A stretch of DNA of 64,000 bases from Megalonaias nervosa (Eukaryota; Mollusca; Bivalvia; Unionida; Unionidae): the NCBI GenBank assembly GCA_016617855.1, contig JAECUM010009762.1:96931-160930 (forward strand), in the 5' to 3' direction. Below are positions 2,092-52,364 of the stretch, piece by piece. The notes below the pieces were generated by a model that was given only the letters and a program-made list of their open reading frames with translations, was not told where the DNA came from and made no database searches. Each line of letters opens with the position of its first letter. Position 1 is the first letter of the stretch. The translations under genes were made by a program, and so were the position numbers.

Positions 2092-3003
2092 ATGAACAAT
2101 CAATTTTACTTAACGTTACCCAGTGACAGTTCCATGGAGGTGTTTCCCAATAACACTTTGTGCTGTTTCTCGGCCAGATTACCTCAAGCCATCCAATTGG
2201 ATCACGAAGCCCATTAGGAAGTGGCTTTAGTGGAAATGATTCACCCTACTCAAATCAAAAACATCATCGAAAATCAAAACACTTTTACGGTAGAAGTTCA
2301 TGACGAACAAGTGCAACAAGCCTTGGATGAACGTAGCAGTATAGCTGACTATATGAAATTACAAGACCCCAAAACTAAATGAACCACTTATCTGTTGAAA
2401 ATTCCTGCGGGTTATTATTTTAGTGGTCAACATTTGGTGAACACTATGGCTGACAGGTTCAATTTCATGTTTGGTAAAGTCTTGGAGAAAACCAGAAAAA
2501 GTGTCACGATCGATTACCACAAAATATCTCATCGCCTACCCATCAAATTTTCTGAGGACAAAGTATTGGCCATTACATTTTGTCCTGAATTGTATGACAT
2601 TTTGGGTGGAGACACTAAGTTCATCAAGATTGCAAACGAAATACCAGCCGTGACCAGTAACACAGATTTTGGGAGATATTTTAGATTCCCTGTAGAAATG
2701 AACCAAGGACTGAATTTGATATTTGTATACTCCGATGTGGCGGAGTACAACGTAGTGGGGCACACCTCCGTACCGTTACTGCGTGTCATTCCTTTCAAAG
2801 TGCACTCTGCCACGGCTGCTGACGAGGAAGGTGGAAACACCTATCACGTTCACCGCGAATTTGTACATCCTCACTATTTGCCAGTCAGTAAGTCGTATTT
2901 CGAAACTGTCAACATTACTATAAAAGGAGATCTGGGACAAAATATTTCATTCACCAAAGGGAAAGTCACAGTGAAACTCCATTTTCGAAAACGATTACTC
3001 TAA
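2092..3003 (+). pseudogene. Penton-like minor capsid protein of element A, two nonsense codons
   Basis: About 303 codons starting at the ATG at 2092 with FYLTLPSDSSMEVFPNNT, the typical start of a protein family that sits just upstream of the major capsid gene in Maverick/adintovirus-like elements of cnidarians and molluscs. The C-terminal half keeps the pattern FVYSDVAEYNVVG...VPLLRVIP and ends with a beta-rich segment (GKVTVKLHFRKRLL), as expected for a jelly-roll fold. Stops interrupt it at 2215 (TAG) and 2380 (TGA). Elements B and C have a relative at 19016 and 56393. By position and fold it probably forms the vertex (penton) of the particle; this role is inferred, not shown by a catalytic motif. 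Confidence 0.68.
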
Positions 3004-3017
3004 CTTTTTGTCAGTCA

Positions 3018-3456
3018 TGCATCCTGTGTACCAAAGAGTTTGCAACAGCGAGGACATGGTTTAGGTGATATGCTCAAACCAGCCTTTCGTACAGTGGTTC
3101 CCGTTTTGAAACCGATGGTGACACGGGGATTACACGCCTTAAAAGATTCCGCGTTGACGCAAGGTAAAGAATTTCTCCAAAATGTCATCATTGACTAACA
3201 AAACCCCAAAGAAGCTTTCCTGAGAGCAGGCAAAAATGTCTTGCTTCAAACGGGCAAACCCCTTTTGGGTCGGCGAGAAACTCTTATAAATGCCCTGGGC
3301 AATGTCGAGTCAGGCATTCCTGTTTCCCTGACGCCACAGCAAGGACAAAGCAGAAAAAGACTACGAAAACACCCTCTGAGAGGACTTCACACCCCTAAAG
3401 CTAGAAAGACTAAGAAAAGAAAAACTGTCCGAGAGTTAGACGTTTTTGATTATTAA
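3018..3456 (+). pseudogene. Small basic virion protein (pVI/pX-like) of element A, broken
   Basis: Begins near the ATG at 3018. A small indel near 3043 and a TAA at 3196 break it. It contains a Gly-rich amphipathic start (GHGLGDMLKPAFRTVVPVL), a helical middle and a Lys/Arg-rich tail (RKRLRKHPLRGLHTPKARK) ending in LDVFDY. The same layout, a GDGLGD amphipathic segment followed by helices and an Arg-rich tail, is seen in the gene just before the capsid gene in elements B and C (14520 and 51888). Adenovirus pVI, pVII and pX are comparable small basic or amphipathic core proteins, and a similar role (membrane-active or DNA-condensing) is likely. Sequence identity to them cannot be claimed. Confidence 0.55.
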
Positions 3457-3469: not shown

Positions 3470-4691
3470 ATGCACCGAGAGTCTTGTGCTTGTTTCAAGT
3501 CGGAACTGGATCTGTTTGCCATTCCACCCACCATGATGACGATGCAAGAATCCCAATGGGTCGAATTTCATCCCGTCTCCTCTTTGACGGATTCAGCTCC
3601 CATCGAGTTTGAAATCAAAGGACAACCCGAAGATTATCTCGATCTGAATAGCAGTTACTTGTACCTAAAACTGAACGTGATTAAAACCGACAACACCAAT
3701 CCGGCAGCCGATGCCAGAGTAGCTCCCGTCAACAATTTCATGCATTCCTTGTTCAGCGAAGTGGATTTGTACTTGAATAACAAACTGGTCAGCAGTAGCA
3801 TGGATACTTACCCTTACCGAGCGTACCTAGAAAATCTCTTGACGTACGGAAAAGAGGCCAAAAACACTCATCTGGATGCTTGCGTGGTATGGAAACCTGA
3901 CACCGCAGGTGAAGACACGTTTAACGACACAGCCCTGACAGCCGATGACAATTCTCACAATGTGGGTTTTAACAACCGTCGAAGGAAAGTCCTGCAAGGT
4001 CGTAGTTTAGAACTGATGGATCATTTGGATTTGGACATGTGGTTGCAAGACAAGTATTTGCAGAACGGAGTGGATATTCGCCTGAGACTCAATCGCAGCA
4101 GTGTCGCTTTCCATTTGATGGCTCATGCCAACGAGTACAAAACCATCATCCAAGAAGCCAAACTTTACGTGCGTCGTGTAGAAGTGTTACCTAAAGCGGG
4201 AAACGACATCAGTCAAACATTGAGTAGATCGACCGCCAAGTATCCGATACGCCGTGTAGAAGTGAAAACATTCACCATTGCTTCTGGATTCCGATCCAAG
4301 ATCGAAGATCATCTGTTCCAAGGACAGTTACCCAAACGTTTAATCGTTGGCATCGTCAGTAATGCAGCCCTCAACGGAGCCCACGATCAAAATCCTTTCC
4401 AGTTTAAGCACTACAGAGTGTCCAAGATCGAAGTCAGTCGCGATGGCAAGACTTTGTGTACCAGACCCTTCGAACCTAACTTTGCCCAGAAGAATTACTT
4501 TGTGGGCCTTTGATATCACTCCAGACCAAGGCATCAGCGAGGGACATTTCCACCCTATAAAATCCGGTCAACTGCGTGTGGAACTTCAGTTTGCAGAAGC
4601 TCTCACTTAGACAGTCAACGTCATCCTGTATGCTGAATTTAATAATACCATAGAAATCAACAGTTTGAGAGAAGTCATTCTAGACTATTAG
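3470..4691 (+). pseudogene. Major capsid protein (double jelly-roll type, family annotated as F54H12.2-like) of element A
   Basis: Starts at the ATG at 3470; the upstream in-frame codons lack an ATG. It has the family hallmark near the N-terminus (SQWVEFHPVSSLTDSAPIEF), then YLDLNSSYLYLKLNV and the VNNFMHSLFSEVDLYLNNK segment, and ends with YAEFNN...REVILDY. I recognise this as the protein commonly annotated in animal genomes as uncharacterized F54H12.2-like, which sits in virus-like elements next to adenain-type proteases; it fits a double jelly-roll hexon-like capsid protein. The frame breaks near 4505, where a few codons of the usual sequence also seem missing, and a TAG lies at 4608. About 406 codons in total. 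It follows the small basic protein by 13 bases, in a compact rightward cluster. Confidence 0.78.
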
Positions 4692-4696: not shown

Positions 4697-5203
4697 ATGG
4701 AAGAATCCTATCCCTCACTGAACAGTGGAGAATCTTTGGACATGGAATGGGAGGATAGCGTGAAAGCAGAACCCCAAGACGAAGCCAAAGAGGCCGAGGT
4801 AGTAGTCAAGTCCAGATGGCCAGAACAAGAACAACATTTAGTGTCCTGTTTTGCTAAACACCTAGCGAATACAATTACGGAATTGTCCAAGAAATATTGT
4901 TATGGATGTCAAAACGATCATCCCAGTCAAATTCAACACGATAAATGTATGATGATGGGTCAAGAAAAAAAATTGGTCGAGTATCTGGACGAAGCTTGGA
5001 GTCTCATCTCAGAAGAAGCAGTGTTGCATGAGTGGTATAAAGGCTTGCGTGATCTTTCCTGCCCTCCATTGACTACTCTAGAGATCTATCGCATCGAATC
5101 TCTCTTAGCCCACAGTGCGGAGACAAGGCGAAGAAACGGCTACTTGACAGATCGTTTCAAACAAAAAGTCAGAACTAAATTGATGACTTATCATTACCTG
5201 TGA
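4697..5203 (+). CDS. Conserved virus-element protein with a Cys/His motif, function unknown
   Basis: 168 aa, open from the ATG at 4697, only 5 bases after the capsid gene. The N-terminal 40 residues are acidic. The middle holds CYGC-x2-DHPSQ-x2-H-x2-C (about residues 68-84), a putative zinc-binding or structural motif that I recognise from proteins at the same position in related animal elements. The C-terminal half is helical and charged. I do not know its function; its place between capsid and protease suggests a virion or assembly protein. It is one of the few undamaged large genes in element A. Confidence 0.6.
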   Translation: MEESYPSLNSGESLDMEWEDSVKAEPQDEAKEAEVVVKSRWPEQEQHLVSCFAKHLANTITELSKKYCYGCQNDHPSQIQHDKCMMMGQEKKLVEYLDEAWSLISEEAVLHEWYKGLRDLSCPPLTTLEIYRIESLLAHSAETRRRNGYLTDRFKQKVRTKLMTYHYL

Positions 5204-5229: not shown

Positions 5230-5768
5230 ATGGTTACCTGGAAACTTTATTACCTTTTGAATAATAGTTCGTATACTGCTTCTTGGAAGATGACCTACCT
5301 CATTGCAAACCTCAAGACCATCAAGCTTATGTCATCAACACGGACGAAAGTCATCTTCCAGGAACTCACTGGGTTGCCGTCTACTTCCCTCAGGAGAACT
5401 GTGTGGAATATTTTGATTCGTATGGATTACACCCGTTGGAAGACGATATCATTGACTTTATGAGAAGAAATGCCCAGACGACACGATACAATAATTTGAA
5501 ATTACAAGGCACAGATTCCATGGTGTGTGGACAATATTGTGTGTATTTTCTTCATCAACGCAGTCTTGGATATCCTTTAGAACATTAAGTGACTTATTTT
5601 GATCGTCACTCTTCTAGAAACGATGAGAAAGTAGATCGATGGTTTTGTGACCATTATAGTTATCTTTTGTCTTTAGCTAGGAAACGTAGTGTACACCAAT
5701 GGCCTCATGATTTCCATCAATGGAAATCTCACATGATTTCACAACGTTGTCAACCTTGTCAAAAATAA
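5230..5768 (+). pseudogene. Adenain-like cysteine protease of element A, broken
   Basis: The peptidase C5 triad is visible: LPGTHWVAVYFP with the catalytic His near 5365, EYFDSYG with the acidic partner, and MVCGQYCVYFL with the catalytic Cys near 5530. The N-terminal part, from the ATG at 5230, is one frame off the core, so an indel lies near 5280; the core frame itself has stops at 5262 and 5265. A TAA at 5586 splits off a C-terminal tail that stays open in the same frame to 5768 (YFDRHSSRNDEKVDRWFCDHY). Adenain processes capsid and core proteins during virion maturation, so the gene fits the capsid cluster upstream. The family assignment is firm. Confidence 0.82.
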
Positions 5769-5954: not shown

Positions 5955-5994
5955 GGGATGTTTTCTATCGCGTCCGCGTTTGAACCATATAAAG
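5955..5994 (+). promoter_or_regulatory. Promoter module, copy 1 of 3
   Basis: A 40-bp module: GGGATGTTTTC, then CGTCCGCG, then ATATAAAG at its end. The same three blocks at identical spacing recur at 6711 and 7791, each upstream of a small gene. The TATA box lies about 52 bases before the likely start codon. The upstream block may bind one factor that co-regulates all three genes; that factor is unknown. Confidence 0.75.
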
Positions 5995-6045
5995 CGGGTT
6001 GGTCTCCAGTCTGGTCATCCATGGTTGACTCGTCTACCTATGAAC

Positions 6046-6414
6046 ATGCCTTCCAGACTAGCCCAGCTGAACGAAGCTTACGTCAGTTTACATCGTGTCA
6101 GGCTAACCCTGATACCGAAGCCTGAAGAGATAGAGAATATCAGGATATTATCCATAGCCCAAGACCAAATAGAAGAGGTCTTTAGAGAGGAAATTAAGAA
6201 AGAACAAGAAGAATGGACTGAGAAGTACAGACTTCAGAAGAAGCAGAGAGAAGAACAACAGCAGCAACAACAGCAGCAGCAGCAGCAAGAACCAGACAGA
6301 GGTTTTGTGGACTGCCGTGTGGACACCAAAGAATTCTCTTTCTCTTTCCGCAGAAGCAGACCGTATCGTATAGGAAAGTCTGCCGCCAGACGGGGACGCA
6401 ATCTTAGACAGTAA
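6046..6414 (+). CDS. Small charged protein with polyQ tract, first of three co-regulated genes in element A
   Basis: Start chosen at the ATG at 6046 (MPSRLAQLNEAYVSL) because it lines up with the start of the next gene (MSSRLQKLLELQMHL); another in-frame ATG is two codons upstream at 6040. About 122 aa. Residues 1-70 are helical and charged, then a run of Gln (CAG/CAA repeats near 6254-6289), then an Arg-rich C-terminus (RRSRPYRIGKSAARRGR). An out-of-frame ATG at 6021 in the leader could act as a short upstream ORF. It looks like a paralogue of the gene at 6799. The basic tail could bind nucleic acid. I do not recognise the family. Confidence 0.62.
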   Translation: MPSRLAQLNEAYVSLHRVRLTLIPKPEEIENIRILSIAQDQIEEVFREEIKKEQEEWTEKYRLQKKQREEQQQQQQQQQQQEPDRGFVDCRVDTKEFSFSFRRSRPYRIGKSAARRGRNLRQ

Positions 6415-6452
6415 AAAAGATTGCCATCACTCCTGTTAACAAAAAAAACCCC

Positions 6453-6490
6453 AGCCCTTTTCAGGGCTACCCAACACTCTCGAAAAGAGA
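6453..6490 (+). terminator. Histone-type mRNA 3' stem-loop and downstream element, copy 1
   Basis: AGCCCT-TTTC-AGGGCT forms a 6-bp stem with a 4-base loop, followed by ACCCAA. This matches the metazoan replication-dependent histone 3' stem-loop except that the outermost pair is A-U. Starting 9 bases after the stem is CTCTCGAAAAGAGA, a purine-rich block like the histone downstream element that pairs with U7 snRNA. No AATAAA lies between the stop codon and the hairpin. Confidence 0.72.
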
Positions 6491-6710
6491 TTCTAATTCA
6501 ATTTGCCAAAGCTTTTAAAATTTTAAAAACTAAATAGAAGTGTGTCTATAAGCACTTCGTTTCTTTTTTGTCAGTAACAAAATCCACCCTTTGTTTTCTC
6601 TGTCTTGTCCAATCGTGCCTGTCTGTGTTTGTAAGTAAAAAGTAAAAAAGTCGACGTGAGTGCTTCTTTTAGGTCCGCACGTTTGATGTGATGGTAAATT
6701 TGGGTGCTAG

Positions 6711-6750
6711 GGGATGTTTACCTTCACGTCCGTGCTTCAAGTATATAAAG
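6711..6750 (+). promoter_or_regulatory. Promoter module, copy 2 of 3
   Basis: GGGATGTTTAC, TTCACGTCCGTGC and ATATAAAG within exactly 40 bp, the same spacing as the copies at 5955 and 7791. The leader after it (cagtct, then gttgactcgtc) also resembles the leader of the first gene, suggesting tandem duplication of the whole expression unit. Confidence 0.78.
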
Positions 6751-6798
6751 TGGCACAATTGTCAGTCTAGCTACCATCGTTGACTCGTCAACTTAAAA

Positions 6799-7272
6799 AT
6801 GAGTAGCAGACTACAAAAACTGTTGGAACTCCAAATGCACCTAGAGTATGTCAGGCGTCTTTTAGACGAACTGACTAGGGAGGCCATAGAGGAGAAAGAC
6901 AGGATCGAAGAGGAGGAGAAGAAAAAGAAAGAAAAGGAGAAGGAAAAGATCCTGCCTCACCTCTTCATGAGACCTCAGTGTGAGGTGAAGCCAGAAATGA
7001 GGACACCTCCACAGACAGTACGACCACCTCAACTACAGCCACAACCAGTACAACGTGCAGAGGAGACAAGGAGGCCAGCTCATCATCATCATCCCCGGGT
7101 CTGGCACAGAGGACAGAGGGAACAACAAGTCTTCACTATTCCACAAACAGAGGAGTGGGATAGTGAAGCCACTCAAGCCCCGTCTGCTCTCCCAACCACT
7201 CGTGTCAATTGGGAGAATGACTGGAGCAGACGTTGCGTGTGTGGTGCCAGGCCAGGAAGGTGTCACCATTAG
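6799..7272 (+). CDS. Small charged protein, second of three co-regulated genes in element A
   Basis: 157 aa from the ATG at 6799, 49 bases after the TATA box. The N-terminal 60 residues are helical and very charged (a Glu/Lys block around residues 33-52), similar in layout to the preceding gene. The middle is Pro/Gln-rich, followed by a His run, and it ends with a Trp/Cys-containing segment (WSRRCVCGARPGRCHH). No family recognised. Its unit has both the shared promoter and the histone-type 3' hairpin. Confidence 0.6.
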   Translation: MSSRLQKLLELQMHLEYVRRLLDELTREAIEEKDRIEEEEKKKKEKEKEKILPHLFMRPQCEVKPEMRTPPQTVRPPQLQPQPVQRAEETRRPAHHHHPRVWHRGQREQQVFTIPQTEEWDSEATQAPSALPTTRVNWENDWSRRCVCGARPGRCHH

Positions 7273-7303
7273 CTAGGTGCATTTGAAGTTCTAAAAAAAA
7301 CCC

Positions 7304-7343
7304 AGCCCTTCTCAGGGCTAGCCAGATCTCTAGAAAAGAGAGA
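7304..7343 (+). terminator. Histone-type mRNA 3' stem-loop and downstream element, copy 2
   Basis: AGCCCT-TCTC-AGGGCT, again a 6-bp stem and 4-base loop; the loop fits the histone UYUN pattern. About 8 bases downstream is TCTCTAGAAAAGAGAGA, a purine-rich element that can itself form a small hairpin. The hairpin lies 32 bases after the stop codon, within the usual histone range. Confidence 0.7.
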
Positions 7344-7408
7344 CTATTCAATTTGCCAATTCGTGTGAATGTAGAGTAGTGTGACTATAAGCACTCACTC
7401 CTTTACTG

Positions 7409-7410
<2 letters not shown>

Positions 7411-7466
<56 letters not shown>
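7411..7466. repeat. (GT)n microsatellite
   Basis: About 28 uninterrupted GT units between the second and third small genes of element A. Confidence 0.97.
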
Positions 7467-7469
<3 letters not shown>

Positions 7470-7470
7470 T

Positions 7471-7772
7471 GTTTCATGCGCATTCGTTGGTGTGGATAGT
7501 AAATAGGTGTGTATGTTTTATGCTTGCTCGTTCGTTGGTGTGAATAGCATATTTGTGTGTTTTATGCTTGCTCGTTCGTTAGTGAGGATAGTATATTTGT
7601 GTGTTTTATGCTTGCTCGTTCGTTAGTGAGGATAGTATATTTGTGTTTTATGCTTGCTCGTTCGTTAGTGAGGATAGTATATTTGTGTATTTTATGCTTG
7701 CTCGTTCGTTGGTGAGGATAGTATATTTGTGTGTTTTATGCTTTCTAGCTCGTTAGTGAGGACAGTATATAT
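7471..7772. repeat. Minisatellite of about 44-49 bp units
   Basis: Roughly six units built on tgcttgctcgttcgtt, then agtgaggatagtatat, then ttgtgtgttttat. Units at the ends are diverged, and the middle ones nearly identical. It fills the space before the third promoter module and probably expanded by replication slippage after the GT run. Confidence 0.9.
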
Positions 7773-7790
7773 TATGTGAAGTGAGTGTAA

Positions 7791-7830
7791 GGGATGTTTT
7801 CGTTCACGTCCGTGCTCCACGGATATAAAG
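7791..7830 (+). promoter_or_regulatory. Promoter module, copy 3 of 3
   Basis: GGGATGTTTTC, TTCACGTCCGTGC and ATATAAAG in exactly 40 bp. The middle block is identical to that of copy 2. The start codon of the third gene follows the TATA box by 33 bases. Confidence 0.78.
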
Positions 7831-7863
7831 CAGAGCGCGCGTCATTCTACACAGAACATAAAA

Positions 7864-8448
7864 ATGACTGGCAACATGGACTTATTCAACAAATTGAAAG
7901 ACAGTTGGTACTGGATGATGGATGGAGCCTACGTGCTGGACAGGCTTGAAAAGGAATGGAGGTTCCCAGGTAGCCTAGACTTGGTGAACAGTCTGAAGGC
8001 AGCTAATTATGAATTACAATGGATGACAGAAGAGGAAGTGGAGAAGTTGAGAGGCTTCCTCCATCCTAAATATGTAAGAGTGGGAACCTTGAAGCAGGTT
8101 CTTGATATTGTTATCAAAGTGAGATGTTTTTTGGAAGACATATTCCATTTAACTGAGTGGCCTTTTGTCAATAAAGGCTTAGACAATTTAAAGAAAGGCG
8201 AAGACATTATGATAAAGGTAATGAAAGAAGAAGTGAAAAAGATTAAAGAGACCTGGACAAAAGAAAGAAAGGACAAAGAAAACATCAAAAGAAAAGAAGA
8301 GTTTGAGAAACTAAACAGGAACTGGATGAAGGTACAGGAAAAGTTTAGAGCTCTGGGACATCCTGACTGGATTCCCGACAAAGAAAAGAAGAAGAAGAAA
8401 GGAATTATTGAAAAAGTGAGAACGTGGTGGAAGAAGTGGAGACAATAA
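7864..8448 (+). CDS. Lys-rich helical protein, third of three co-regulated genes in element A
   Basis: 194 aa from the ATG at 7864. The first 100 residues are mixed, with several Trp (WYWMMDG, EWRFPG). The second half is strongly helical and Lys/Glu-rich (residues 115-165), suggesting a coiled coil, and the tail is basic (KEKKKKKGIIEKVRTWWKKWRQ region). Not similar by eye to the two preceding genes, although promoter and 3' hairpin are shared. Undamaged. Function unknown; a nucleic-acid-binding or core role would fit the charge but is a guess. Confidence 0.65.
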   Translation: MTGNMDLFNKLKDSWYWMMDGAYVLDRLEKEWRFPGSLDLVNSLKAANYELQWMTEEEVEKLRGFLHPKYVRVGTLKQVLDIVIKVRCFLEDIFHLTEWPFVNKGLDNLKKGEDIMIKVMKEEVKKIKETWTKERKDKENIKRKEEFEKLNRNWMKVQEKFRALGHPDWIPDKEKKKKKGIIEKVRTWWKKWRQ

Positions 8449-8465
8449 AAGAAGAAGACGACAAA

Positions 8466-8505
8466 GGCCCTTTTCAGGGCCACTTCATATGCCTCGAAAA
8501 GATTT
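8466..8505 (+). terminator. Histone-type mRNA 3' stem-loop and downstream element, copy 3
   Basis: ACAAA then GGCCCT-TTTC-AGGGCC then ACTTCA: a textbook replication-dependent histone 3' hairpin including the upstream CAAA. CTCGAAAAGATTT, 11 bases downstream, fits the U7-binding purine-rich element. It is the best match of the three and lies 17 bases after the stop codon. Confidence 0.8.
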
Positions 8506-8544
8506 ATTCTTTCTTGCCTAAAAAAAATTTAAAACCCTACTCTA

Positions 8545-8847: not shown

Positions 8848-11800
8848 CTCAGTTATCAAAACACATTCCTATGAATGACCAAGAGTTTGTCAGCGTAATT
8901 GATATCAACACCAGCTATTTGATGGCTTGAAGTGTACATTTTGCCTTCAGCTATGTTTAACACAACACTTGAACTAACCTGGCCAATGCGAGGACAATCT
9001 CAAAAGGGATGGTCATTCAATGATCCTCTAAAAAAAATCATTGGGCGAAGTCGTTTTAGCTTTCCTTGAAGGCGAAGTTTACACTTTTTAGGCGACTTAG
9101 GTTCCCACTTTGCCTGGTAGCATGACCCCTGTATACACAACCATGTCAGCCTATTCTGCGCATCGAGTAATTCTGTGCAACGATGCATCATTTCTGTAAA
9201 CATTGGATCGCGTGTTGTTTTTGGTCAAATTTCAAATTTGTATCATTAAAGAATGATCATCTTTTAATTAAGGAAAGTGATATTCATAACGTGTACAAAA
9301 ATATCCCACATTTCTATTCGAAATGCAGATGACAATGTGATTTTAAATGTCAACATGAAGACCCACTCCATGATCTTGAACTTGTAACCCAGAAAAAACT
9401 ATTAAATATTTCTCTTCTAGAATCATACAGATATACATTATTTAAAAGGTGTAACTCTTTACCTTGGAACAAAACTGAATCTAAATCCAAGTTTCTAATT
9501 TTGCAAGTTGTCCGATACCTACTTTATCATCTGCTATCGAAATTGTCAACTTGCCGCTTCTCAAGAATTTCCCGGGTTTATACTATATAGTTTGTTTCTA
9601 AATTCTTTAGTATTTTTTATTTCCACAAATGAGACGTTGTAAACACATTACATCCTATTCATTGTTGCTTCTTTTCAACAAAATAGCTTATTTTTATAAC
9701 TGTGTAATTTTTACTAATTTTTTTTACTAGATCAGTTTAGTTTGATTGATATCTCTTGCCATTTAGTGGCATTGTTACGTTGAATTTTGTAAAACCAGCT
9801 ATAAACCTGACCTAGCTCCTCATCTAAAATGTTGACAGAAAGAGTCCAAAGTAATGTCTTTCATTTCCATAGCCCGATGCATTAACATTACACCTTTTCA
9901 AAGCCATGCACAGAATAGGCCAACATTTCGCGAGTCAACGAAACACGGGTAGTATCCCGTGTGTCCAAAATTAGTATTATTTTAAACAGAATGTTCTGGT
10001 GACAATTGCAGCTTTTCAAATGGTAAGCACTGCAGTATTTTATTTTCGTCAATCGGTCGAATTCGGTATGTGTTTTGTGCCTTATTATGACTCCGTTGGC
10101 TTAACAAGGCCAGGAGCCTGAAATCAGTACTTACTTGTTTATCTAAGATCAAGTTCATGTGGTACTGAAATTACTCAAGATACAACTTTTTCAATCTTTA
10201 AACACCTAAAAATAAAATGACATGCCCTTCTTCAGACATTACTCATAAATACATAGGTAAGAGAGTAAGATGTAAACACTATATAATGTTTTATTATATG
10301 CTCATTTTTTTCTCCGTAAACTTTACATTGTCGGAATCGTTCAATATTGCACTCGTGCGCTCAATTCATAATGCATTCACGAAAATAAAGGAACTACTTT
10401 CTATTATAAACAATCTGTTTCTGAATGAACTAAAGCAGATGTTTCATGGACTGCCACATACCAGCTGCTTTGGCTCATTCCGCGTTAACATTTTCGATAC
10501 AGTGTTTCAGATATAGGCTAGCTATAGATGCCAGACAGGGACCTTACAAATAACATGCAAGTGACAGGGCATAAACTGTCTTCTTTAGCTGGTAATAAGA
10601 ACGGCAAAAAATATACTTACAGTTTTACATCCTGAATTTCATCAAAATGTACTTTCTTAGTTCTGTAAATCCAAATGACGTGAGCCACGTCATGGGTTCT
10701 CAAGCTTGATTACACATTTCAAAATTGTACTGTAATTTCGACTGTATTCCAAATGCAATTGCATCCTCCTTATTGCACTCAAAATGAAATAAACATTAAA
10801 TTCCATAGCGTCTTTTCGATAATTGCAATTGAAAGACTTCATATTTTTCCCACATTATGATTTGAAACATTCAATTACAGAACCGAAACACACTTGCAGA
10901 TGTCAACACGCTTCTCCCTCCTTCTTTCAATCCGGTGTATATTGTTGTGTGTCTAGGCTCGTAGAAAGTAACAAGAAAAAGAGTGAAGCCAACAAGCTTT
11001 GTAAAATTTGCCAAATAATTTATTTCCCTAGAAAAACAAGGTAAAAATAAGAAAAAGGACTTAAGGTTTATCAATCTAATCCGAAATTAATCCGAGAATT
11101 AAAAAATATAAGTCCTATCAATAAAAAGTCCTAAGTGACTCATAGTTCGAATCCCGATTAAATTCCAAGATGGAAGATGATAACGTCTTCTATAATCTGT
11201 TTTGCATTGATGTGTCAACAGTTCCTTGTTGAATCACCAAGACTAATAATCCGAATTTAGAATTCCGAATAATTCCAATAAATGTCTTTGTCCAAGAATT
11301 CGAATGAGCACTAGTATTTTTCAGGGAAAATAAATTATCAATTCCGAAAAATAGCAAAATTCAAATCAAACTGGCAACAACAAAAATACCTTCAAGCTCC
11401 AAAAAGATATAGATTTGCGACTGAGAAAAAAATCAGTATGAAACTGAGTGTTAATCCTAATTAAAACCCAATTCAGATCCTCGTGATGGGGTCACGTGAT
11501 CACTTAGTCCAAGCGACGCAAAAAGACTACAAAGAAGTCTATTATCACGTAGGCCAGATATGACCTTGACTGAAATCGGTGATTCCTTCACTGGGAATGA
11601 ATATAAAAATAAAAAATTTTTTAAAAAGTTGTTTACCAGAAACTGAATCTAGGTCACCGATTGATACAATGTATCGAGCTACTGCTTGTTTATCAGGCTA
11701 AAAAGAACTGAACTGAATTTTCTGGAAAAATGTCAAATCCAGTGAATAAAGTTATCATTACAATAACATGTAATGGAATAAAATAAAAATTAAAAAAAGG

Positions 11801-13160: not shown

Positions 13161-13406
13161 AGCAGCAGAGGAGGTGAACGGACCACTTGTCTGAATTGTC
13201 ATTTGTCTAAAAAATAAGGGTTCCTACGAAGGCTGAAAATAATGTCGATAACGTTAAACCAAAAACCTCTAACTGACCATGAGATTTCTCTAATTGGGTT
13301 AGCTTATCTCGTTACTTTATCTCCGACTCTTTGTTTTTATTTTATGGAGTTTTCGTTTACTCGCCGGGTCATTCAATTTTGGTCGTCCACCTCCTCTGCT
13401 GCTGTA
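13161..13406. repeat. Left terminal inverted repeat of element B
   Basis: Begins AGCAGCAGAGGAGGTGAAC and pairs over its full 246 bp with 29346-29591. Unusually, its inner end is the inverse of its outer end (cacctcctctgctgctg at 13389-13404), so each repeat can fold on itself. The inner end lies 26 bases before the start codon of the first gene, so the repeat probably carries its promoter. Confidence 0.93.
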
Positions 13407-13432
13407 GTAATTAAATCATTGTTATATCAATA

Positions 13433-14488
13433 ATGATTGATGAACCACACTCATCTAGATTAGCTCGAGAGCGACTAGAGGCAATTAAAAGATATTTACC
13501 TGTCCGTGATTCCGTCAAGCAACAACTACAAGCGCGTCAAGAATCTCAAGTTGAATTTGCAGAAGATGCAAAACAATTATTTAAACCTGTTACAGAAACC
13601 ACTAAAGGTCTTCTTCCTGCGTTAGAGAAGACCGCTGAAGCAACTGGAAAAATGACAGAAAGAACTAAGAAAACAAAAAAGATTTTACGAGAACTTCCGG
13701 CTGAAATAGTTGCTACACAACCAATGCAAGAAATACTTGAAGGTATTGACCAAGCTCGTGTTGAAAGAGGTGATATAAAAGATCGTATATCAGAACCAGA
13801 GGAAAAACCAGAAGGAATTAAAACTGCTCTGATCGATAAATTTACTGAATACGGTGTTGGGTACATCAAACAACTCGACGAAAAAGATTTACCTGAGAGT
13901 GCCGTTAGAAGTTTTTTTGATAAAAGACAATTTCTAAAGCCTGAGTATCATGTTCGTTCTATAGACATTGAAAAATGGTATAAATGGATATTTCGCATGT
14001 ACCACGGCGTTGATCGGATCCGAAGTAATGATCCAAAATATAATGAGTATAGAAACAAAATAGATAATTATATTACGCAGTTACAACGACGACAATTACA
14101 ATCACAACAAAAACAACAGCCACAACAACAATCTCCAAAATCACGAATACCATTGCCACAATCTCCAAAACCACAAAAACAACAACGACGAGAGGAAGTA
14201 ACAAGTGAGGAAGAAGAACACGGTGTAGTTTTTGATCCTGACCCCGGCGCAACTGGAAGTGATCTTACTACTCAAGGAAGTGGCCTTATTAATTGTCCTA
14301 ATAACGTCCTTGCCGATGTTGAACGACTAGAAATCCTCATTGGAGGAAAACGAGCTGGTAATAATTCCCCAGAAATAATTAATGAAGCAGCTGATATTTG
14401 TAAACGATTATTTACAGGTGGTATCATGGATATTAATGTGTATCGGTCTCTCATTAATGAAATGGCCGATGACTACCACAGTGATTAA
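13433..14488 (+). CDS. Gln-rich putative virion protein, first gene of element B
   Basis: 351 aa, undamaged. The N-terminus (HSSRLARERLEAIKRYLPVR) is almost identical to the gene at 50766 in element C. The first 120 residues are helical with coiled-coil character, residues 205-250 are a Gln/Pro-rich linker, and the C-terminal 65 residues (LEILIGGKRAGNNSPEI...) form a conserved helical domain. The linker differs most between the two copies, while both ends are conserved, as in a protein with two folded ends and a flexible middle. I recognise the C-terminal domain as recurring in related cnidarian and mollusc elements, but no function is known. First place in the capsid cluster suggests a structural or scaffold role. 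Confidence 0.65.
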   Translation: MIDEPHSSRLARERLEAIKRYLPVRDSVKQQLQARQESQVEFAEDAKQLFKPVTETTKGLLPALEKTAEATGKMTERTKKTKKILRELPAEIVATQPMQEILEGIDQARVERGDIKDRISEPEEKPEGIKTALIDKFTEYGVGYIKQLDEKDLPESAVRSFFDKRQFLKPEYHVRSIDIEKWYKWIFRMYHGVDRIRSNDPKYNEYRNKIDNYITQLQRRQLQSQQKQQPQQQSPKSRIPLPQSPKPQKQQRREEVTSEEEEHGVVFDPDPGATGSDLTTQGSGLINCPNNVLADVERLEILIGGKRAGNNSPEIINEAADICKRLFTGGIMDINVYRSLINEMADDYHSD

Positions 14489-14519
14489 GTATATACTTAA
14501 ATACAATGACTATAATAAG

Positions 14520-14969
14520 ATGATCATACATAATACTCAACGTGGACCGACCATGGTCAGGGTAATAAATTCACGATTACCAGTATACAAAACGACCTAC
14601 GGAGATGGACTAGGTCATGTTGTTCAAGGTTTATTTAGAAGAATAGCCCCAAAAGCAATACCGATTGCAAAGCAACTGGGAATGAAAGCTATTGATGTTG
14701 TCCGTGAAAAAGGTATTGGTGCTGTTGGTGATGTTGCTAGTAAAGCATTCTCAGCAATCAAGGATAGACTAGCACGATTAATACGATGAAAACCTCAGCC
14801 ATCAGTGAAACTGGCCAGCACTGAAGTGATGCCCGCAAATATTAGTAAAATAATAAATCAAGCTGCGAATCAAAAACTAGCAGAGTTGGCTGATGTACCA
14901 CTATCAGAAAAAGAAAAAAATATAACCGCTAGTCTAATAGCTGGAAGTGGTCTTCGTGTTAGACGATAA
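14520..14969 (+). pseudogene. Small pVI/pX-like virion protein of element B, one stop
   Basis: Starts at the ATG at 14520 (the counterpart in element C starts at 51888). Contains YKTTYGDGLGHVVQGLF, an amphipathic Gly-rich start similar to the small basic protein of element A, then an Ala-rich helical stretch and a basic tail. A TGA at 14787 splits it. After that stop the frame stays open to 14967 with sequence conserved in C (KLASTEVMPAN). 150 codons. It ends 14 bases before the capsid gene. Likely a core or membrane-active protein processed by the protease; inferred from position and composition. Confidence 0.6.
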
Positions 14970-14983
14970 TAAATATAATAAAG

Positions 14984-16349
14984 ATGTTCAAATGTATATC
15001 TGATCCCACATTTGACATGGACGCACCAGTTCTCAAAGATGATTCCGTTCGGGATTATCAATACTATTCTTATGACGCTCGAATTCCAGATCAGCGTGGA
15101 CGAGTTGAATTTCAAGTTCAAGATACAAGTAGGTATCTCTTACCCGCTGAAGCATTCATTGAAGTTGAAGGTAAAATTTTTAAAGCAGGTAATACTGAAT
15201 ACGGAAACGATGATGTTGTTGGTTTTGTTAATAATGGTATCATGGCTTTGTTTGACAGCGCCACGTACGTGATTGACGGAAAAAAATATTGAATCGATTC
15301 AAAAGATGTTGACGTTGCCACAACGATACTTGGCCTTGCAAGATATAGCGACGATTATTCAAGATCAGCTGGTCCATCAATGATGTTTACCAAGGACACT
15401 TCTGATCGTCTAGATCACAAAAATGTAACTACGGGTAATGTAAGAAATGCTGCAGGAACCGCAGAAACTCCCGCAGTAATATCAATGAATGCAAATTTCA
15501 ACTTAGGAGTCGCATCACGTCGAACAATGTTGAAAGATAAGATTTTCATGTGCAATTCCATTATCACATATTTTTGGGTTTTGCAGAAATGTTAGAAAAG
15601 TTATTTTCGGAGCCAAGCACACAATTGTACTTGTAAGAAAAGCCACGGACAATGATGCAATATGGCGATCTGCCGGTGATGCTGGTAAAGTAGTACTGAC
15701 AAAACTTTCATTGTGGATGCCAGTAATGACTCCAACAATATCTGAAGAAGAACGTTTACTATCTTTTATGAGTCAAGGTGGTAAATCAATGTTATCATGG
15801 TTAACAATGACCACAGATAGTGTTCAAAATGCAATTAATGGTTTATTCACATGGCGAATAGCTTCTCAGCAAGGCATCTCTGCACCGAGACATATATTCG
15901 TTGCGCTTCAAGATAATACACGATTAAATGATCAAACACGAAGTTCGATGATATTTGACAACCTTGGTGTTTCTGAGGTTTCACTGAGAATAAATGGACA
16001 TCAAGAACCATCCGAGGATATTTTGTTGAATCTCGAGGTAACTCATGTTGCACGTGCATATCTTCGATTGATGTCGTTTATGGGGCGTGATCAGAATATT
16101 GATTCTGGTTTACAAATATCACAGCTAGATTTTACAACCTTATATCCAATTTATTACTTTTCGCTGGAACATTTAGATTTAACCAGGCAGTCTGTTGTAG
16201 ATATACATTTTCGATCTCGTATTAGCAGAAATATTATAGATATTCCTAATTACAGAGCAATTGCCGTTATACTCAGCGATAAATCAATGTTACTTAAAGG
16301 TGTTGGTGGACGAATGCGAGTCGTTGATGCTCCAGTAGAAAACATGTAA
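14984..16349 (+). pseudogene. Major capsid protein of element B, broken
   Basis: About 455 codons. The N-terminal half (QDTSRYLLPAEAFIEVEG, VNNGIMALFDSATYVIDG) matches the layout of the capsid protein of element A, with strands followed by the VNN-x-LF segment typical of the first jelly roll. The C-terminal half contains the conserved LSLWMPVMTPT and SDKSMLLKGVGGRMRVVDAP blocks. A TGA at 15290 and a frameshift between about 15540 and 15600 inactivate it. The copy in element C has different lesions, so the two decayed separately. Double jelly-roll identity is inferred from gene context and from the parallel with element A. Confidence 0.65.
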
Positions 16350-16371
16350 TTAGATCGCTCATAATATTATA

Positions 16372-17262
16372 ATGTCATATAATCACGTTAATGTCAGTCT
16401 GACTCCTGGTCAGATTAAAAGGTTACAATCAGCATCAAAGAATAACTGCGGAATAAAAATATCGCTAAAAAAAGAATAAATGAGCGGTGCAAATGAATTA
16501 TCGTTGACCGAGCGTCAGTTCAGAAACTTCAATGAAGCCAAAAAATCAAATAAAGGTATAAAACTTAATCTTTCTGCGGGCGCCATCAAAGATATTATTA
16601 AATCTGTTGGTATATTTCCACTTCTTGCAGCTATACCAGCATTAATCGCCGCTGCAGCCCCAGCTGTTGCAAAAGCAGCTGCATTAGGCGCTGTTGGAAC
16701 CGCTGCTGGAATGGCGTTAAAGAAAGCAACAGGTCAAGGAATAAAATCTTACCTAAAAAAAGGGAAGGGGTCTAAGATTACCAGGAACTTATTTAAGATC
16801 GGGAAGAGGATTAAGACTACCAGAGACATATCTTCAACTCTGCCTATGTCTAATTTTGATTTACTTGATGCCGCTGAAAAATTAAAAATAGCAAACTTTA
16901 GAGGAGTTTTTATGCGTGATCAATTACCAAAACAACCAAACAATATTGAAACTGGTATTAGTAATCTAGATAAAAACTCTGGTCATGGCACTCATTGGGT
17001 TGCATATGCAATTGATCCACGTGGAATTATTTATTTTGATTCATATGGACTAGCACCACCAAAAGAATTTTTAAGATATGTTAGTAACATGCAGAATATT
17101 CCAATCTGGTATTCAACGCTACCAACACAAACATTAACAGATCCACCAATATGTGGTCGTGAAGTACTCGCTGTACTTGACGCTGTATCAAGATCAACAA
17201 AACCACCTCATAAAGCTTTACACGATTATACTACGTTGTCACATTTAAACAGATATCGATAA
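16372..17262 (+). pseudogene. Basic/hydrophobic core polyprotein fused to adenain-like protease, element B
   Basis: The gene starts at the ATG at 16372 (VNVSLTPGQIKRLQ), with a TAA at 16477 about 35 codons in; the rest is open. Order: a repeat-like N-terminal domain (SLTERQFRNFNEAKK), an Ala/Gly-rich hydrophobic stretch (near 16610-16730), a Lys/Arg-rich linker, then a peptidase C5 domain: GTHWVAYAI with His at 16993, YFDSYG, and PPICG with Cys at 17152. The N-terminal part resembles precursor core proteins that adenain-type enzymes cut. Fusion to the protease would place enzyme and substrate together in the particle. Element C has the same arrangement at 53776. Confidence 0.78.
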
Positions 17263-17267
17263 GTATA

Positions 17268-18402
17268 ATGGTAGATATTTACGGAAGATCAACAACTAAA
17301 ACTAAAACAAAACAAGCACTTCCCCAAGACTTACTCAAGCAAGTAACAAAACAGATCAACGACGAGTTATCTGACATGCTCAATCTTGCCAATGTTGATC
17401 CAAATGAACTTGTTGTATTTCAAAACCGTGAAGGAAAATTGAAGACGAGTAATATCTCAGTCAATGATATTATTCTTCGTAATCGATTATCGCGAGAAGG
17501 TCTTATTGCTGTATACGACAAAGATGGCAAACTTGTCCCTAGTGTTGTTAGTCCGTCATCGATCAGAGATAGTATAAGTGAACGGGTGTTAAAAGCTGGC
17601 GATATAATGAATGGCGTCATTAACATAAATAAAAATAAAATTATTAATGTAGGAGAACCGGCGGATAATCTCGACGCTGCTACAAAAAAATACGTCGACG
17701 ATCAAGAATCTAAGTACGTATTAGCCAACGGTGGTATAATGCGTGCATTTCTCAACATGAATAATAATGGTATTAATAATCTCAGAACACCAGAATTAGA
17801 TTTTGATGCTGCAACAAAAACAAAAAATACGTCGATTATAGCAATATCCCGACGGTGACATCATTAACCACAATCAATGATGGAATTACCGCATTTAGAA
17901 CTGAATTCTCTAATCACGTACAAACGTTCCTAAATTTTCGTCGAAATATAAACAGAACCACTAATGAATTTTTTGGAAGTCCACCAACTGTTGACATAAA
18001 TCTCAAGGATATACATACGAAACTTAATGATATTGTCAGTGGAATTCCTAATATTGTTCAAAAACTAATCTTGTTAAAATTCCACACGGACAGATTAACA
18101 ATATAGTGTACACAGTAGCATCAGGATCATCAACATGGACACTACAAAATAACGCTATCAAACATACCGCAGATGTAACTGGTGTGTACAGGCTGTCCGT
18201 ATTCAGTAACGAAAAATTTAGGATATTCACCACATTTCCATGGCGTCATTCAATCGATGTGTTTTCTGGAACTGTCTCCATTATATTAAATAAAGATACC
18301 GAAGAAGAATTAATACTGGAACCATCTGACAAAACATTAACCTCGGTGTCTTACTGGTGGTGTCTGGAATTCGTAGCTGAAACTCCTCAATTAATTACTT
18401 AA
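17268..18402 (+). pseudogene. Fibre-like protein with phage-tail-fibre repeats, element B, frameshifted
   Basis: About 378 codons in three frames; indels near 17830-17870 and 18060-18110. Two copies of a repeat with the pattern M-x-G-x-I-x-x-N-x-N-K-I-x-N-x-G-x-P-x-x-x-x-D-A-A-T-K-K-Y-V-D are visible (about 17605-17700 and 17740-17830). This is the signature of short tail-fibre and spike proteins of phages, where it forms a trimeric beta-structured shaft. The C-terminal part (TVDINLKDI..., then YWWCLEFVAE) would be the tip or head. The intact relative in element C is at 54795. Probably the receptor-binding fibre; the family motif is clear, the role is inferred. Confidence 0.7.
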
Positions 18403-18406
18403 TTAA

Positions 18407-18907
18407 ATGACAACGCTATTAAGTGTAATGAATCAAACCTCAATAGACTTTCAACGTCACAGATACAATGAAATATGTAAGTGTCAGGTTGAACTAAAAA
18501 ATATCATTGACGATTATACAGTAAAAGTAAAAAAATATCGCAGACGTATGGTTGTCATTGGTATAATTGTTTACTCAGTTTCTGCTATTATTGCTGGAAC
18601 CGGATTATTATTATCAACAATAACAACGACAGCGCCTGCAGTTGTAACAATTGTCGTTTCAACTTCAACGACTATCGCAGGCATTCCCAGTATTATCGCT
18701 AAGAAGATATCTACATGTACAAGTGATAAATTACACGAGTATATAATGAAATTACATACAGTAACAACAGCTTATTCTAAACTATCGTCATATCTTTCGT
18801 TGTACCTCAGCGATGGTAAAATATCTGATGAGGAGTTCGCAACGATAATGAAAACCTACGATAAAGTATTCCTTGACAATAGCCAAGGTGAAAAAGTGGA
18901 AGACTGA
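18407..18907 (+). CDS. Two-helix membrane protein of element B
   Basis: 166 aa, undamaged, starting 4 bases after the fibre gene. Residues 25-50 are charged, ending in KKYRRR; two hydrophobic segments follow (MVVIGIIVYSVSAIIAGTG, and PAVVTIVVSTSTTIAGIPSI), then a helical tail with LSDGKISDEEF. Similar proteins occur in related animal elements, and the closely matching copy in C is at 55866. The hydrophobic pair rich in Ser, Thr, Ala and Gly suggests membrane insertion or a hairpin that could act in entry or assembly. Its conservation in both copies, while larger genes decayed, is partly due to its shortness. Confidence 0.68.
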   Translation: MTTLLSVMNQTSIDFQRHRYNEICKCQVELKNIIDDYTVKVKKYRRRMVVIGIIVYSVSAIIAGTGLLLSTITTTAPAVVTIVVSTSTTIAGIPSIIAKKISTCTSDKLHEYIMKLHTVTTAYSKLSSYLSLYLSDGKISDEEFATIMKTYDKVFLDNSQGEKVED

Positions 18908-19015
18908 ATTTCCGATTTAAAATAATAACAATAATAATAATGTCAACGTCCTTGACTGAGTCAAGAGAATTTATTACTCCAGATCGTCACTAATACAGCA
19001 CCGTCAAAAACTACT

Positions 19016-20440
19016 ATGATATCATTAAGTTCGACCAATCCTGAGTTTAGCATTAACTTTCCAACCGCAATTCCAGCCAAAGAAATGGCATTAGCACAAT
19101 TACGAGTTTATTATAGTTGGCCAAATATTAGGTCAAAATCGTTTGGTGGACTACAAACGAATAATTCATTAGTATTTACAAATAAGAATAAACCTGATGG
19201 AACTCCTGATTGGCAAGTAATTAGTATTCCAACGGGCAGTTATCAAATAGAACAGATCAATGATGAATTCCAACGCAGGGTTAAATCCATTACAGGAAAA
19301 GAATCGAAGATTGCCATTACTGTTCACGAACCAACGCTGTCATCAGACATTGAAATATTATCACCGGATTACGCCGTGGACATATATTAGTCTTCGATTA
19401 GATCAGTATTAGGATGGCCTGAAGTTGCATCAGTTTACACAGGTCCACCAGAACCACGACAAGATGAATTTTTTACAATGGAAAAAAAATACATAAAAAA
19501 ACCGGACGTTTATCTCAACGGAATTCCTGATGTCGAATTTTCTACACTTGATTGGCTGGACAGAAGAGAAACTATTACCGATACTGATGGAACATTGATT
19601 CCTCGTTATGGTTATCATTCTATAATCGCCGTCAAACGTGATCCAGTAACAGGACGGGCTATACGTGTCAATGATAAAGAAGTTGAAGTACCTTATGAAG
19701 AACCGATCGATGGATGGGTTGCTTCAATCGAATTTGAACACAATAATAAAATTAATGATTTTAAAAATTTATTTTCATCGTTATCACAAGTCGACGACGA
19801 GGACATTAAAATAAATATTATTGAAACAATACAACATCTAAATAAACTTTGATCAGATATGTATATCATTAATCGTTCTTTTATCTTAAAAATGCTTGAA
19901 GAGGATAAATTATTTCCAAAAATGAATCTCATGAAAATTTTTCTTGATTATTATGGAACAACTAAAGAAAAAATCACAACGTTTACAATACCAAAACTAG
20001 ATTCAGATAGATTAAAAAGGAGACTCATAGATGTTATCAACAATCACTTTCCCAGAATCCTCGAATCGTGGAGAAAAATAGCCCAACCAGCAAATATTCT
20101 TAAATATAATTATCCGTACGGTGAAGGTCGTCATATTTCTCCTGGCATTGTTAATATAACATCGACGATCGCAGTCAATCTAGTATGTGACGTAATTGAT
20201 GGTAGCTATCAAGTAGATCTTTCAAAGTCTCGCCAGGCCCAGCAAGGATATATAATATATTCATTCAGTCCTCATGTTCCTCCTTGGATGTTAATTGTAT
20301 CTGAGCCAATTAACCCCGTTTATCTATGTGTACATAATACGCTATTATCGAGGATACATTTCAAACTTACTCACCAGACTGGACACAATCTGGATTTAAG
20401 AAATGAGGAATTAGATATTAATCTGTATGTGAGATCGTAG
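19016..20440 (+). pseudogene. Penton-like minor capsid protein of element B, two stops
   Basis: 475 codons, all in one frame from the ATG at 19016, with stops at 19388 (TAG) and 19850 (TGA). N-terminal part: SLSSTNPEFSINFPTAIP, then YYSWPNIRSKSFGG and IPTGSYQIEQINDEFQRR. C-terminal part: GIVNITSTIAVNLVCDVIDG, PINPVYLCVHN and a final strand LDINLYVRS, matching the order of motifs in the shorter penton-like gene of element A. The middle, from about 19450 to 20040, is an insertion relative to A and very diverged in C. Likely a vertex capsid protein. It is the last gene of the rightward capsid cluster. Confidence 0.62.
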
Positions 20441-20518
20441 AACGTCTGAGTAAATTATAAAATAAAAAAAAATAATCTGATTCTGAAAAGATAATTATAT
20501 TATTTTTGTTAGTTGATT

Positions 20519-20830
20519 TTTCATTTAGTCGTGCAAATACCCCATCAAATTATTAAATTTTGCTGTATTTTTCATTTAGGCGTGCAAATACCCCATCAAA
20601 TTATTATTATTAAATTTTGCTAGATTTCTTCATTTAGTCGTGCAAATACCCCATCAAATTATTAAATTTTGCTGTATTTTCTTAATTTTACAAAATATTT
20701 CATCGAATTATTTTACTTATAACATTATTATGAAAAACTAAAAATCAGTGAAATTTGCTGTGTTTTCTTCATTTAGTCGTGCAAATACCCCATCAAATTA
20801 TTAAATTTTGCTAGATTTCTTCAATTTGAT
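20519..20830. repeat. Four AT-rich iterated repeats
   Basis: Units begin near 20521, 20574, 20631 and 20769 with catttagtcgtgcaaatacc then ccatcaaattattaaatttt. Spacing is irregular (52 to 138 bp). They sit at the end of the capsid cluster and may be binding sites or an origin-like array; function is unknown. Confidence 0.75.
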
Positions 20831-21549
20831 GGGTTGAACAGTACTCAAATCATTAAAATCTGAATAAATGATCAATTTCTATGATTAAAGCAATTGCATA
20901 TAAAGCGAGATAACTTCTGTCCTCTCTGTAGAGTAATTTAAGTAATTATCTCCCCCGTCGCTGCGTCAATTGGTAAGACCACGGCGATATTTTGTTTTCT
21001 TTCATCAAAACGGTTAATTATTTAGCGATTTAATTGTTCTCTGTAAGCAATTAGCTGTCACTGGAGCAGTAATTTGTAACAGAAAAGGATATTTATGCAC
21101 CTTTTGACTCTGATGACTTTAAATCACGCCGGCTTAATACAAGTGCGTAATTACAAAATTCAGGTTATTTTTAGTTAGTTGTATACATGTATTTTAACCT
21201 AACAAACGAGAACTTATACAGAAAATCTAATATTTTATGAAGTGTGTTTGGAGATGAATTAAATCTACGCTACAGTTTTACAATAATTACAGTATATTAA
21301 GTCGTACGTAATTTGCCTGCTTACAACCATGTAATTTATTAGATCTTTTAATTAACAGGCTATATTGATCTACATGTACACTTCAGCTTTCGGACTTACT
21401 GTGAAGAATTATTATTTATTCAAAAATAAAGTAAATCTACGTTACAGTTTTACAATAATTCAGTATATTAGTCGTACGTAATTTGACTGCTTATTCAGTA
21501 TTGGGTTAACTATATAATAATTTTAGAACGTATATTTGTATGAATCGGA

Positions 21550-21610
21550 AAGTGATGCAGTGTTATGGCGTTGGATTCTCGTACTCAAGGTCCGTGGTTC
21601 GATTTCCATG
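21550..21610 (+). other. tRNA-like segment in element B
   Basis: gcgttggattctcg followed by ctcaaggtccgtggttcgat has the look of the second half of a tRNA with a B-box (GGTTCGATT). The counterpart in element C at 59186-59254 (-) also has an A-box-like TGGCCGATTGCTAACGCG. The element B version is degraded at its 5' side. It may be a pol III promoter, a captured tRNA or a SINE head; no full cloverleaf could be assigned. Confidence 0.4.
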
Positions 21611-21889
21611 ATCGACATATGTCAATGGAGGCGATTTTGATGCCATTTTCTAAGATAATTGGGGGTCCGGAGAAATCCTCGAAATCCAACAGAAAAATAA
21701 TACACTCTCCCACCATGTCACCACGTGGTGGGTGTAACTTTTGCACTCCCCGGGGTTGATTATGGGAGGGAGAGTGTACAAAATCTGTTGGACGTAGATA
21801 AGGCCCCCGTTTATGTATGTGCCGTCTCTTAGGATAAGTTTATATGTCGTGTTTGTGTCGTTAATAAAAATTACGGATCACCCTCCGAA

Positions 21890-22140
21890 CTTTCTAGGAT
21901 GTCATTTAGCAACTTAGGGGTTCACATGGGGGTGAGTCTGTATAAATTACCCTCTGAATTTGCTAGAATGTCGTTTGGCAATCTAGGGGTTCACATGGGG
22001 GTTGTGTTTCGTCTAATTTCGAATATCCTCTGAGCTTTCTAGGATGTTGTTTGGCAACCAAGGAGTTCACATGGGGATATTTCGAATGCCCCTGAGCTTG
22101 CTAGAATGTTGTTTGACAATCTAGGAGCTCATATGGGGAT
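21890..22140. repeat. Four tandem repeats ending in ttcacatgggg
   Basis: Units of about 60-75 bp share ttctaggatgt, ggcaa, ctaggggttcacatggggg. One or two related units lie inverted in element C near 58590-58650. Purpose unknown. Confidence 0.75.
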
Positions 22141-22274
22141 GTGTTGTGATTATATGTTTTGCAAATATTTTTTTTTTCTTCAGATTTCAGAAACATTATT
22201 ATTATGATTCAGGAACATCTTATAATCTGATTTAGTAATATTTTTTATTTTAAACAAATATTTATGTATATATA

Positions 22275-22722
22275 ATGAACTACGAAAACGTTAATAATAT
22301 TATCTCTGCTATTGAAAAATTATAACGTGACGGAATAAAAATATCTGATAATCTTGATCCTCAGAAAATTATGTGTGATTTTGAATTATTACAACAACGA
22401 AAATTTGAAAATAAATATACATTACCATCTGATTATAGATTCATGAAATTAATTTATCAATCTATGTTAGAATCCTTGGCAATGGCAAACGACACACAGG
22501 TAAAGCTATTTGCACCTCTTGCACGTTCAGTCGAAAAGATCAGATCCGAATTGTCTCACGAGCACGAAAGAAAAAAACATTGTGAATAACCGTTTAATGC
22601 AGTTGAGAAAGATTATGTCATTTTATTCTGTCAAAAGTGAGACAAGTGACACTGAGAACAGCGACAGTGAAGGTGGACCTTTGACTGTGGTGATTGCTAA
22701 ACAAAACCCTTGGCAAAATTGA
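22275..22722 (+). pseudogene. Small charged protein of the B/C family, broken in element B
   Basis: Begins at the ATG at 22275. A TAA at 22323 and a frameshift near 22583 break it. The core (NKYTLPSDYRFMKL) matches the intact 135-aa gene on the minus strand of element C at 58014-58421, and both end in AKQNPW. Helical and charged, no known domain. In B it points rightward and in C leftward, because the surrounding block is inverted. Confidence 0.62.
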
Positions 22723-22813
22723 CAGAGTCGAACTATATAGTAAAAAAATATCTATTTATTCTGTTGTTTTTTTTTATTTTAAGTATCATTGATCCACCTA
22801 CAAGAGGACAGAG

Positions 22814-23316: not shown

Positions 23317-23345
23317 TTATATAATGATATTATTTGTTTAAATCA

Positions 23346-28132: not shown

Positions 28133-28174
28133 TATAATATTTATATAATTAATTACCCAGCCCCTAGCATTATT

Positions 28175-28662: not shown

Positions 28663-28674
28663 ATTATTTATTAT

Positions 28675-29343: not shown

Positions 29344-29345
29344 TT

Positions 29346-52355: not shown

Positions 52356-52364
52356 TAATAAATA

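Follow-up and report, generated by a model that had tools for sequence, protein, structure and literature searches.

Animal replication-dependent histone genes carry a stem-loop soon after the stop codon and a purine-rich element downstream of it. The transcript is cleaved between these two signals, the first being bound by SLBP and the second base-paired to the U7 snRNP. To our knowledge, histone messages are taught as the sole animal mRNAs that end in this hairpin rather than in poly(A). Here, we describe the same arrangement behind three small genes of Megalonaias nervosa. The likeness to histone genes extends to uninterrupted frames, compact tandem or head-to-head units, and TATA promoters of their own. 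Unlike histone genes, however, these genes encode no recognisable histones and are carried by virus-like elements, with at least 150 matches in the genome.

The element that carries them resembles adintoviruses and Maverick-Polinton elements, such as the set in the sections of PMC11071296 available to us, in its double-jelly-roll capsid, penton-like, and adenain-like protease genes. It differs in having an additional small-gene module with histone-type ends, which we did not find in four distant capsid relatives (L001-L004). Small animal DNA viruses have already been linked with histones through the histoid genes of adomaviruses, one of which comes from a Tegillarca clam data set (PMC11071296, same sections). 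As presented there, it is the protein that resembles histones, whereas here it is the mRNA end, and gene 3 of our module lacks a convincing fold match.

A viral module and three small genes

The window that we analysed is a stretch of 64,000 nt (assembly GCA_016617855.1, contig JAECUM010009762.1, positions 96,931-160,930, forward strand), and the genome searched is the same assembly (2.19 Gb, 54,709 contigs). The double-jelly-roll major capsid protein gene, the feature by which adintoviruses and Mavericks are recognised, lies at 3470-4688 and is broken: it contains a stop, and near 4500 its frame changes where about 30 codons are missing. It is accompanied on the forward strand by a small membrane-type ORF behind a gypsy-type pol ORF (1751-1960; one stop; tblastn 47-51% to ORFs of L001 and L003), a penton-like gene (2095-3009; two in-frame stops; tblastn 30% to an L001 protein, E 1e-32), and a core-like gene (3046-3261; one stop; tblastn 34% to an L001 protein, E 1.5e-5). 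Downstream follow an open 168-aa acidic ORF without a Pfam match (4697-5203) and an adenain-like protease gene (5325-5645) with an in-frame stop at 5586-5588, a Peptidase_C5 match just under the Pfam cut-off (E 7e-4), and 38% tblastn identity to L001. We saw neither PolB nor integrase in this copy, which on its left runs into the gypsy element; the relative L001 has ORFs read as PolB, ATPase, and integrase.

Genes 1, 2, and 3 lie beyond the protease gene on the same strand, at 6040-6414 (124 aa, pI 9.6), 6799-7272 (157 aa), and 7864-8448 (194 aa, pI 9.5, predicted all-helical), with predicted messages of about 455, 550, and 632 nt. Their frames are open and their products all net basic. No Pfam family scored above cut-off and none of the three encodes a core or linker histone; an earlier, sequence-only reading of the window had described the products as charged and not recognisable as histones. 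The predicted fold of gene 3 (mean pLDDT 77) gave no Foldseek match below E 0.05 in PDB or BFVD. By our own manual count, about 3.4 kb of capsid and protease genes contain about 9 lesions (stops or changes of frame), versus none in genes 1-3; at an equal rate, zero lesions would have a probability of 0.02-0.05, and we regard the intactness of the small genes as suggestive only.

Each small gene has its own promoter, with GGGATGTTT, CGCGTCCGCG, and TATAAAG ahead of gene 1 (5955-5994) and the same motifs ahead of gene 2 (6711-6750) and gene 3 (7791-7830). The shared set can be written as GGGATGTTT, a C(A/G)CGTCCG(T/C)G dyad, and TATAAAG, and the part of it that we searched for occurs three times in the window, once ahead of each gene. 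The dyad, C(A/G)CG-TC-CG(T/C)G (at 5971, 6727, and 7807), changes symmetrically between gene 1 and genes 2 and 3, as expected of a sequence bound by a protein with two-fold symmetry, and is a candidate for such a site. A TG run and a minisatellite with a 44-nt unit (7410-7814) separate gene 2 from gene 3, standing directly before the gene 3 promoter, and the spacing of these two genes differs between genome copies.

The window also contains two related Maverick/Polinton-type elements (13161-29591 and 50766-64000), about 37.4 kb apart and both with double-jelly-roll genes. The first has 246-nt inverted ends that are 94% identical and additionally carries A32-type ATPase, HNH, and phospholipase-A2-like genes. 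Neither element gave a match to RF00032, the Rfam covariance model of the histone 3' stem-loop (curated cut-off, 34 bits).

Histone-type hairpins and downstream elements

A hairpin with a 6-bp stem and a 4-base loop lies behind each of the three genes on the coding strand: AGCCCT-TTTC-AGGGCT at gene 1 (6453-6468, 38 nt past the stop), AGCCCT-TCTC-AGGGCT at gene 2 (7304-7319, 31 nt), and GGCCCT-TTTC-AGGGCC at gene 3 (8466-8481, 17 nt). Histone 3' stem-loops are expected no more than about 100 nt past the stop, and all three fall within 17-38 nt. GAAAAGA blocks, candidate histone downstream elements, begin 13, 13, and 14 nt beyond the hairpins (6482-6488, 7333-7339, and 8496-8502). Both features are confirmed as the sequence-only reading had noted them. 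That reading had also proposed a covariance search, and RF00032 gave a significant match at gene 3 (8461-8507; 38.9 bits, E 6.8e-8). The matches at gene 1 (6448-6494; 29.3 bits, E 2.8e-4) and gene 2 (7299-7343; 16.2 bits) fall below the cut-off, the latter being weak, with an E-value of 0.96 in a 3-kb search with all 4227 families.

Each hairpin folds into the structure drawn, with shuffle z-scores of -4.0, -1.7, and -1.5 for genes 1, 2, and 3, so that a fold far more stable than in shuffled sequence is seen for gene 1 alone. A pattern composed once the hairpins were already known, the hairpin followed by AAAAGA or GAAAGA within 32 nt, occurs three times on the forward strand of the window and never on the reverse, whereas 200 simulated windows gave 0.015 on average and never more than 1; the hairpin pattern alone occurs three times on the forward and once on the reverse strand (simulated mean 0.43, maximum 4). 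Inside the hairpin and downstream block, gene 3 is identical to gene 1 at 24 of 26 bases and to gene 2 at 22 of 26, compared with 28/74 and 25/73 in the rest of the flank. Genes 1 and 2 also resemble each other outside these signals (44/74), which points to a more recent common flank.

The signals recur behind other copies of the genes. For this count, we took the best row per locus (L030-L089), counted each distinct 3' flank once, and excluded flanks shorter than 90 nt and matches ending more than 25 residues short of the protein end. We scored a hairpin as intact when it had six pairs, a G at position 2, and a T at both positions 1 and 3 of the loop. Such hairpins occur in 23 of 28 flanks of gene 1, 32 of 37 of gene 2, and 28 of 37 of gene 3; hairpin and downstream block together are present in 21/28, 30/37, and 25/37. 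The hairpin also accompanies relatives down to 39% protein identity, so that it is conserved across homologues as a histone 3' stem-loop would be, and its co-occurrence with orthologues, which the sequence-only reading had left to be checked, is borne out. At least one hairpin with a downstream block occurs in 69 of the 76 loci that we fetched (L022-L097), which partly overlap and many of which were picked for their genes or hairpin.

Mean pairwise differences at gene 1 are 0.030 in the hairpin and 0.039 in the block, with 0.081 between the two, 0.081 upstream, and 0.083 downstream. The corresponding values are 0.034, 0.022, 0.034, 0.109, and 0.061 at gene 2 and 0.056, 0.060, 0.085, 0.047, and 0.206 at gene 3. 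These comparisons favour constraint on the hairpin for genes 1 and 2, with the gene 2 hairpin varying as much as the interval that separates it from the block (both 0.034). For gene 3 they favour constraint against the downstream side only. That the gene 3 hairpin is more variable than its upstream flank (0.056 vs 0.047) speaks against the explanation that we prefer, as do the weak score and the TCTC loop of the gene 2 hairpin.

Compensatory stem changes, which the sequence-only reading had looked to as a test, exist but are few. The three window stems differ by one base pair, A-U versus G-C, with both sides changed, a result equalled by 158 of 500 shuffles. Of 14 hairpin misses in the row-wise flank list, where some loci have two rows, 9 are single-base stem changes; two more have two changes, one is a deletion, one has an altered loop, and in the last (L082) pairing is kept by a two-sided change at pair 2. 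Conservation is therefore mostly of sequence.

Could the hairpin instead be a DNA or RNA feature of the element, for example a palindrome recognised by a protein, that only looks like the histone signal, with the transcripts being polyadenylated? The scarcity of compensatory changes would fit this reading, and so would an AATAAA at 8444-8449, which overlaps the gene 3 stop and lies 16 nt ahead of the hairpin. The claim that no AATAAA lies near the hairpins thus fails for gene 3, while the one ascribed to the upstream protease gene is indeed there, at 5815. However, the stop codon is TAG in 32 of the 37 distinct gene 3 flanks and TAA in one, so the AATAAA over the stop looks private to the window copy. 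Within 120 nt after the coding part, AATAAA occurs in 4/28, 0/37, and 2/37 flanks of genes 1, 2, and 3, where it is a possible alternative transcript end. Moreover, the match to the histone signal takes in the loop, the bases on either side, and a second element at the right spacing, and all three window hairpins sit just past a stop codon on the coding strand. We therefore consider a look-alike unlikely and are highly confident that the hairpin and downstream signals are genuine.

Copies and relatives across the genome

Searches of the genome gave at least 155 matches to gene 2 and at least 150 to gene 3. Among the gene 3 matches listed, one group is window-like and another, at about 79-82%, shows little variation, which suggests recent amplification. 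At the 30 best gene 2 loci, one of which is the window's own, gene 1 is present in 27, and the protease gene and gene 3 in 26 each; contig ends truncate at least two of the remaining loci. This linkage, recurring on many contigs, largely refutes the reading in which genes 1-3, with their histone-type ends, belong to the host and are neighbours of a dead viral insertion by accident. That reading gains something from the distant capsid relatives L001-L004, which hold no relative of genes 1-3 at E <=0.1, but we judge it very improbable. The same four relatives gave no RF00032 match at E <=1.

Two of these relatives, L001 and L002, are animal virus-like capsid genes in contigs filed as Escarpia and Bathymodiolus bacterial symbiont genomes, probably as a result of host contamination. 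L002 has a weak twister-P1 ribozyme-like match downstream of its capsid gene (11734-11798; 28.9 bits, below cut-off).

The GGCCCT-TTTC hairpin with a GAAAAGA block also follows diverged relatives of gene 3. It is present in L090-L092 (79-81%), which were picked from the gene 3 match list with flanks not known beforehand and of which L092 has one G-U pair, and in L024 (58%), L026 (47% and 68%, in two pieces), and L103 (39%), which were obtained via hairpin or H4 searches. An H4-like match near the L103 hairpin was rejected; it has no sensible frame for H4, and the hairpin belongs behind the gene 3 relative.

RF00032 itself has at least 75 matches in the genome, 66 of them over the cut-off; the window's own are not among them. 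We opened 13 of the 75 listed loci (L022-L029 and L093-L097), all over the cut-off. In 12, the hairpin lies behind a relative of gene 3, a gene of 77 aa, or a partner of the 77-aa gene. In the thirteenth (L022), it comes after a GGGATGTTT/CGTCCG promoter like those of the window, with a gene 2 relative and its own hairpin upstream. The core histones H2A, H2B, H3, and H4 had no match at E <=0.01 in these 13 loci, and an H4 search of the genome gave 7 matches, none of them an H4 gene followed by a hairpin. Host histone genes may be missing from the assembly.

The 77-aa gene was found at 8 loci, all reached through the hairpin, and its partner, which lies head to head with it, at 10 loci, often with broken frames. 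The two are 232 bp apart in L028 and L029, and their layout is reminiscent of divergent histone gene pairs. A hairpin lies behind the partner in 4/10 loci and another 4/10 end at the locus edge; in L027 and L028, no hairpin was found behind it by the pattern used. In L029, both small genes end in histone-type hairpins. A protease relative stands near these families in L027 only (36%), so their viral link is weaker than that of genes 1-3. Chance similarity in a low-complexity region, which the weak gene 2 match might suggest, is extremely improbable given three occurrences in the window against 0.015 expected and recurrence behind diverged gene 3 relatives and two further families.

We found no relative of gene 3 in the genome_contigs collection, and none of gene 3 or the capsid protein in the viral_contigs collection, which we take to consist mostly of phages. 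The common promoter pattern has no occurrence in viral_contigs. Hairpin pattern scans of viral_contigs returned 7, 7, and 3 stretches, and none of these 17 loci reached the RF00032 cut-off. Four of the first 7 were inspected and have no GAAAAGA within 44 nt past the hairpin; the other 10 came from patterns that already required both hairpin and block. One candidate, L019, was rejected as a true signal because its match sits within a 625-aa frame, and the remaining matches, which are unannotated, we took for chance. A limited literature search found nothing joining the histone stem-loop with polintons, which does not establish absence from print. For histone stem-loop, viral genome, and SLBP together, the parts of the records available to us yielded only a viroid RNA motif. 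The term 'stem-loop' does not occur in the available sections of PMC11071296, PMC11071308, and PMC8363768.

Proposed processing by the host histone pathway

Why would a viral element carry histone-type mRNA ends? Our findings support the earlier proposal that these elements borrowed histone-type 3' processing. Judging from sequence, genes 1-3 likely form an accessory module within a high-copy adintovirus/Maverick-like element, and their messages would be processed by the host histone pathway. Each gene would act as a compact unit in which one uninterrupted frame stands between the common TATA promoter and a histone-type stem-loop, with a purine-rich element further downstream. The host U7 snRNP and SLBP machinery would cut the transcripts between stem-loop and downstream element, and the cut transcripts would exit the nucleus without a poly(A) tail. 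The messages would then be translated and degraded together with host histone mRNAs. The link to S phase and SLBP, which the sequence-only reading had put forward, is drawn from histone mRNA biology; should the pathway be used, S-phase expression would follow naturally. The proteins would thus be made mainly in S phase or in fast-dividing cells of the embryo or germ line, at times when replication is open to a nuclear DNA virus, and the virus may benefit from this timing.

On a broader proposal, we are evenly divided. An animal DNA virus lineage may have taken over the histone mRNA pathway as an expression switch for at least five families (genes 1-3, the 77-aa gene, and its partner), perhaps starting from a captured histone gene pair with replaced coding parts, so that the supply of viral protein would follow S phase independently of poly(A). 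If true, a large virus-derived family of non-histone genes with histone signals would break the histone-only rule, and a DNA virus would be able to follow the cell cycle through RNA processing. Moreover, scans for the histone hairpin in some genomes may largely pick up viral genes.
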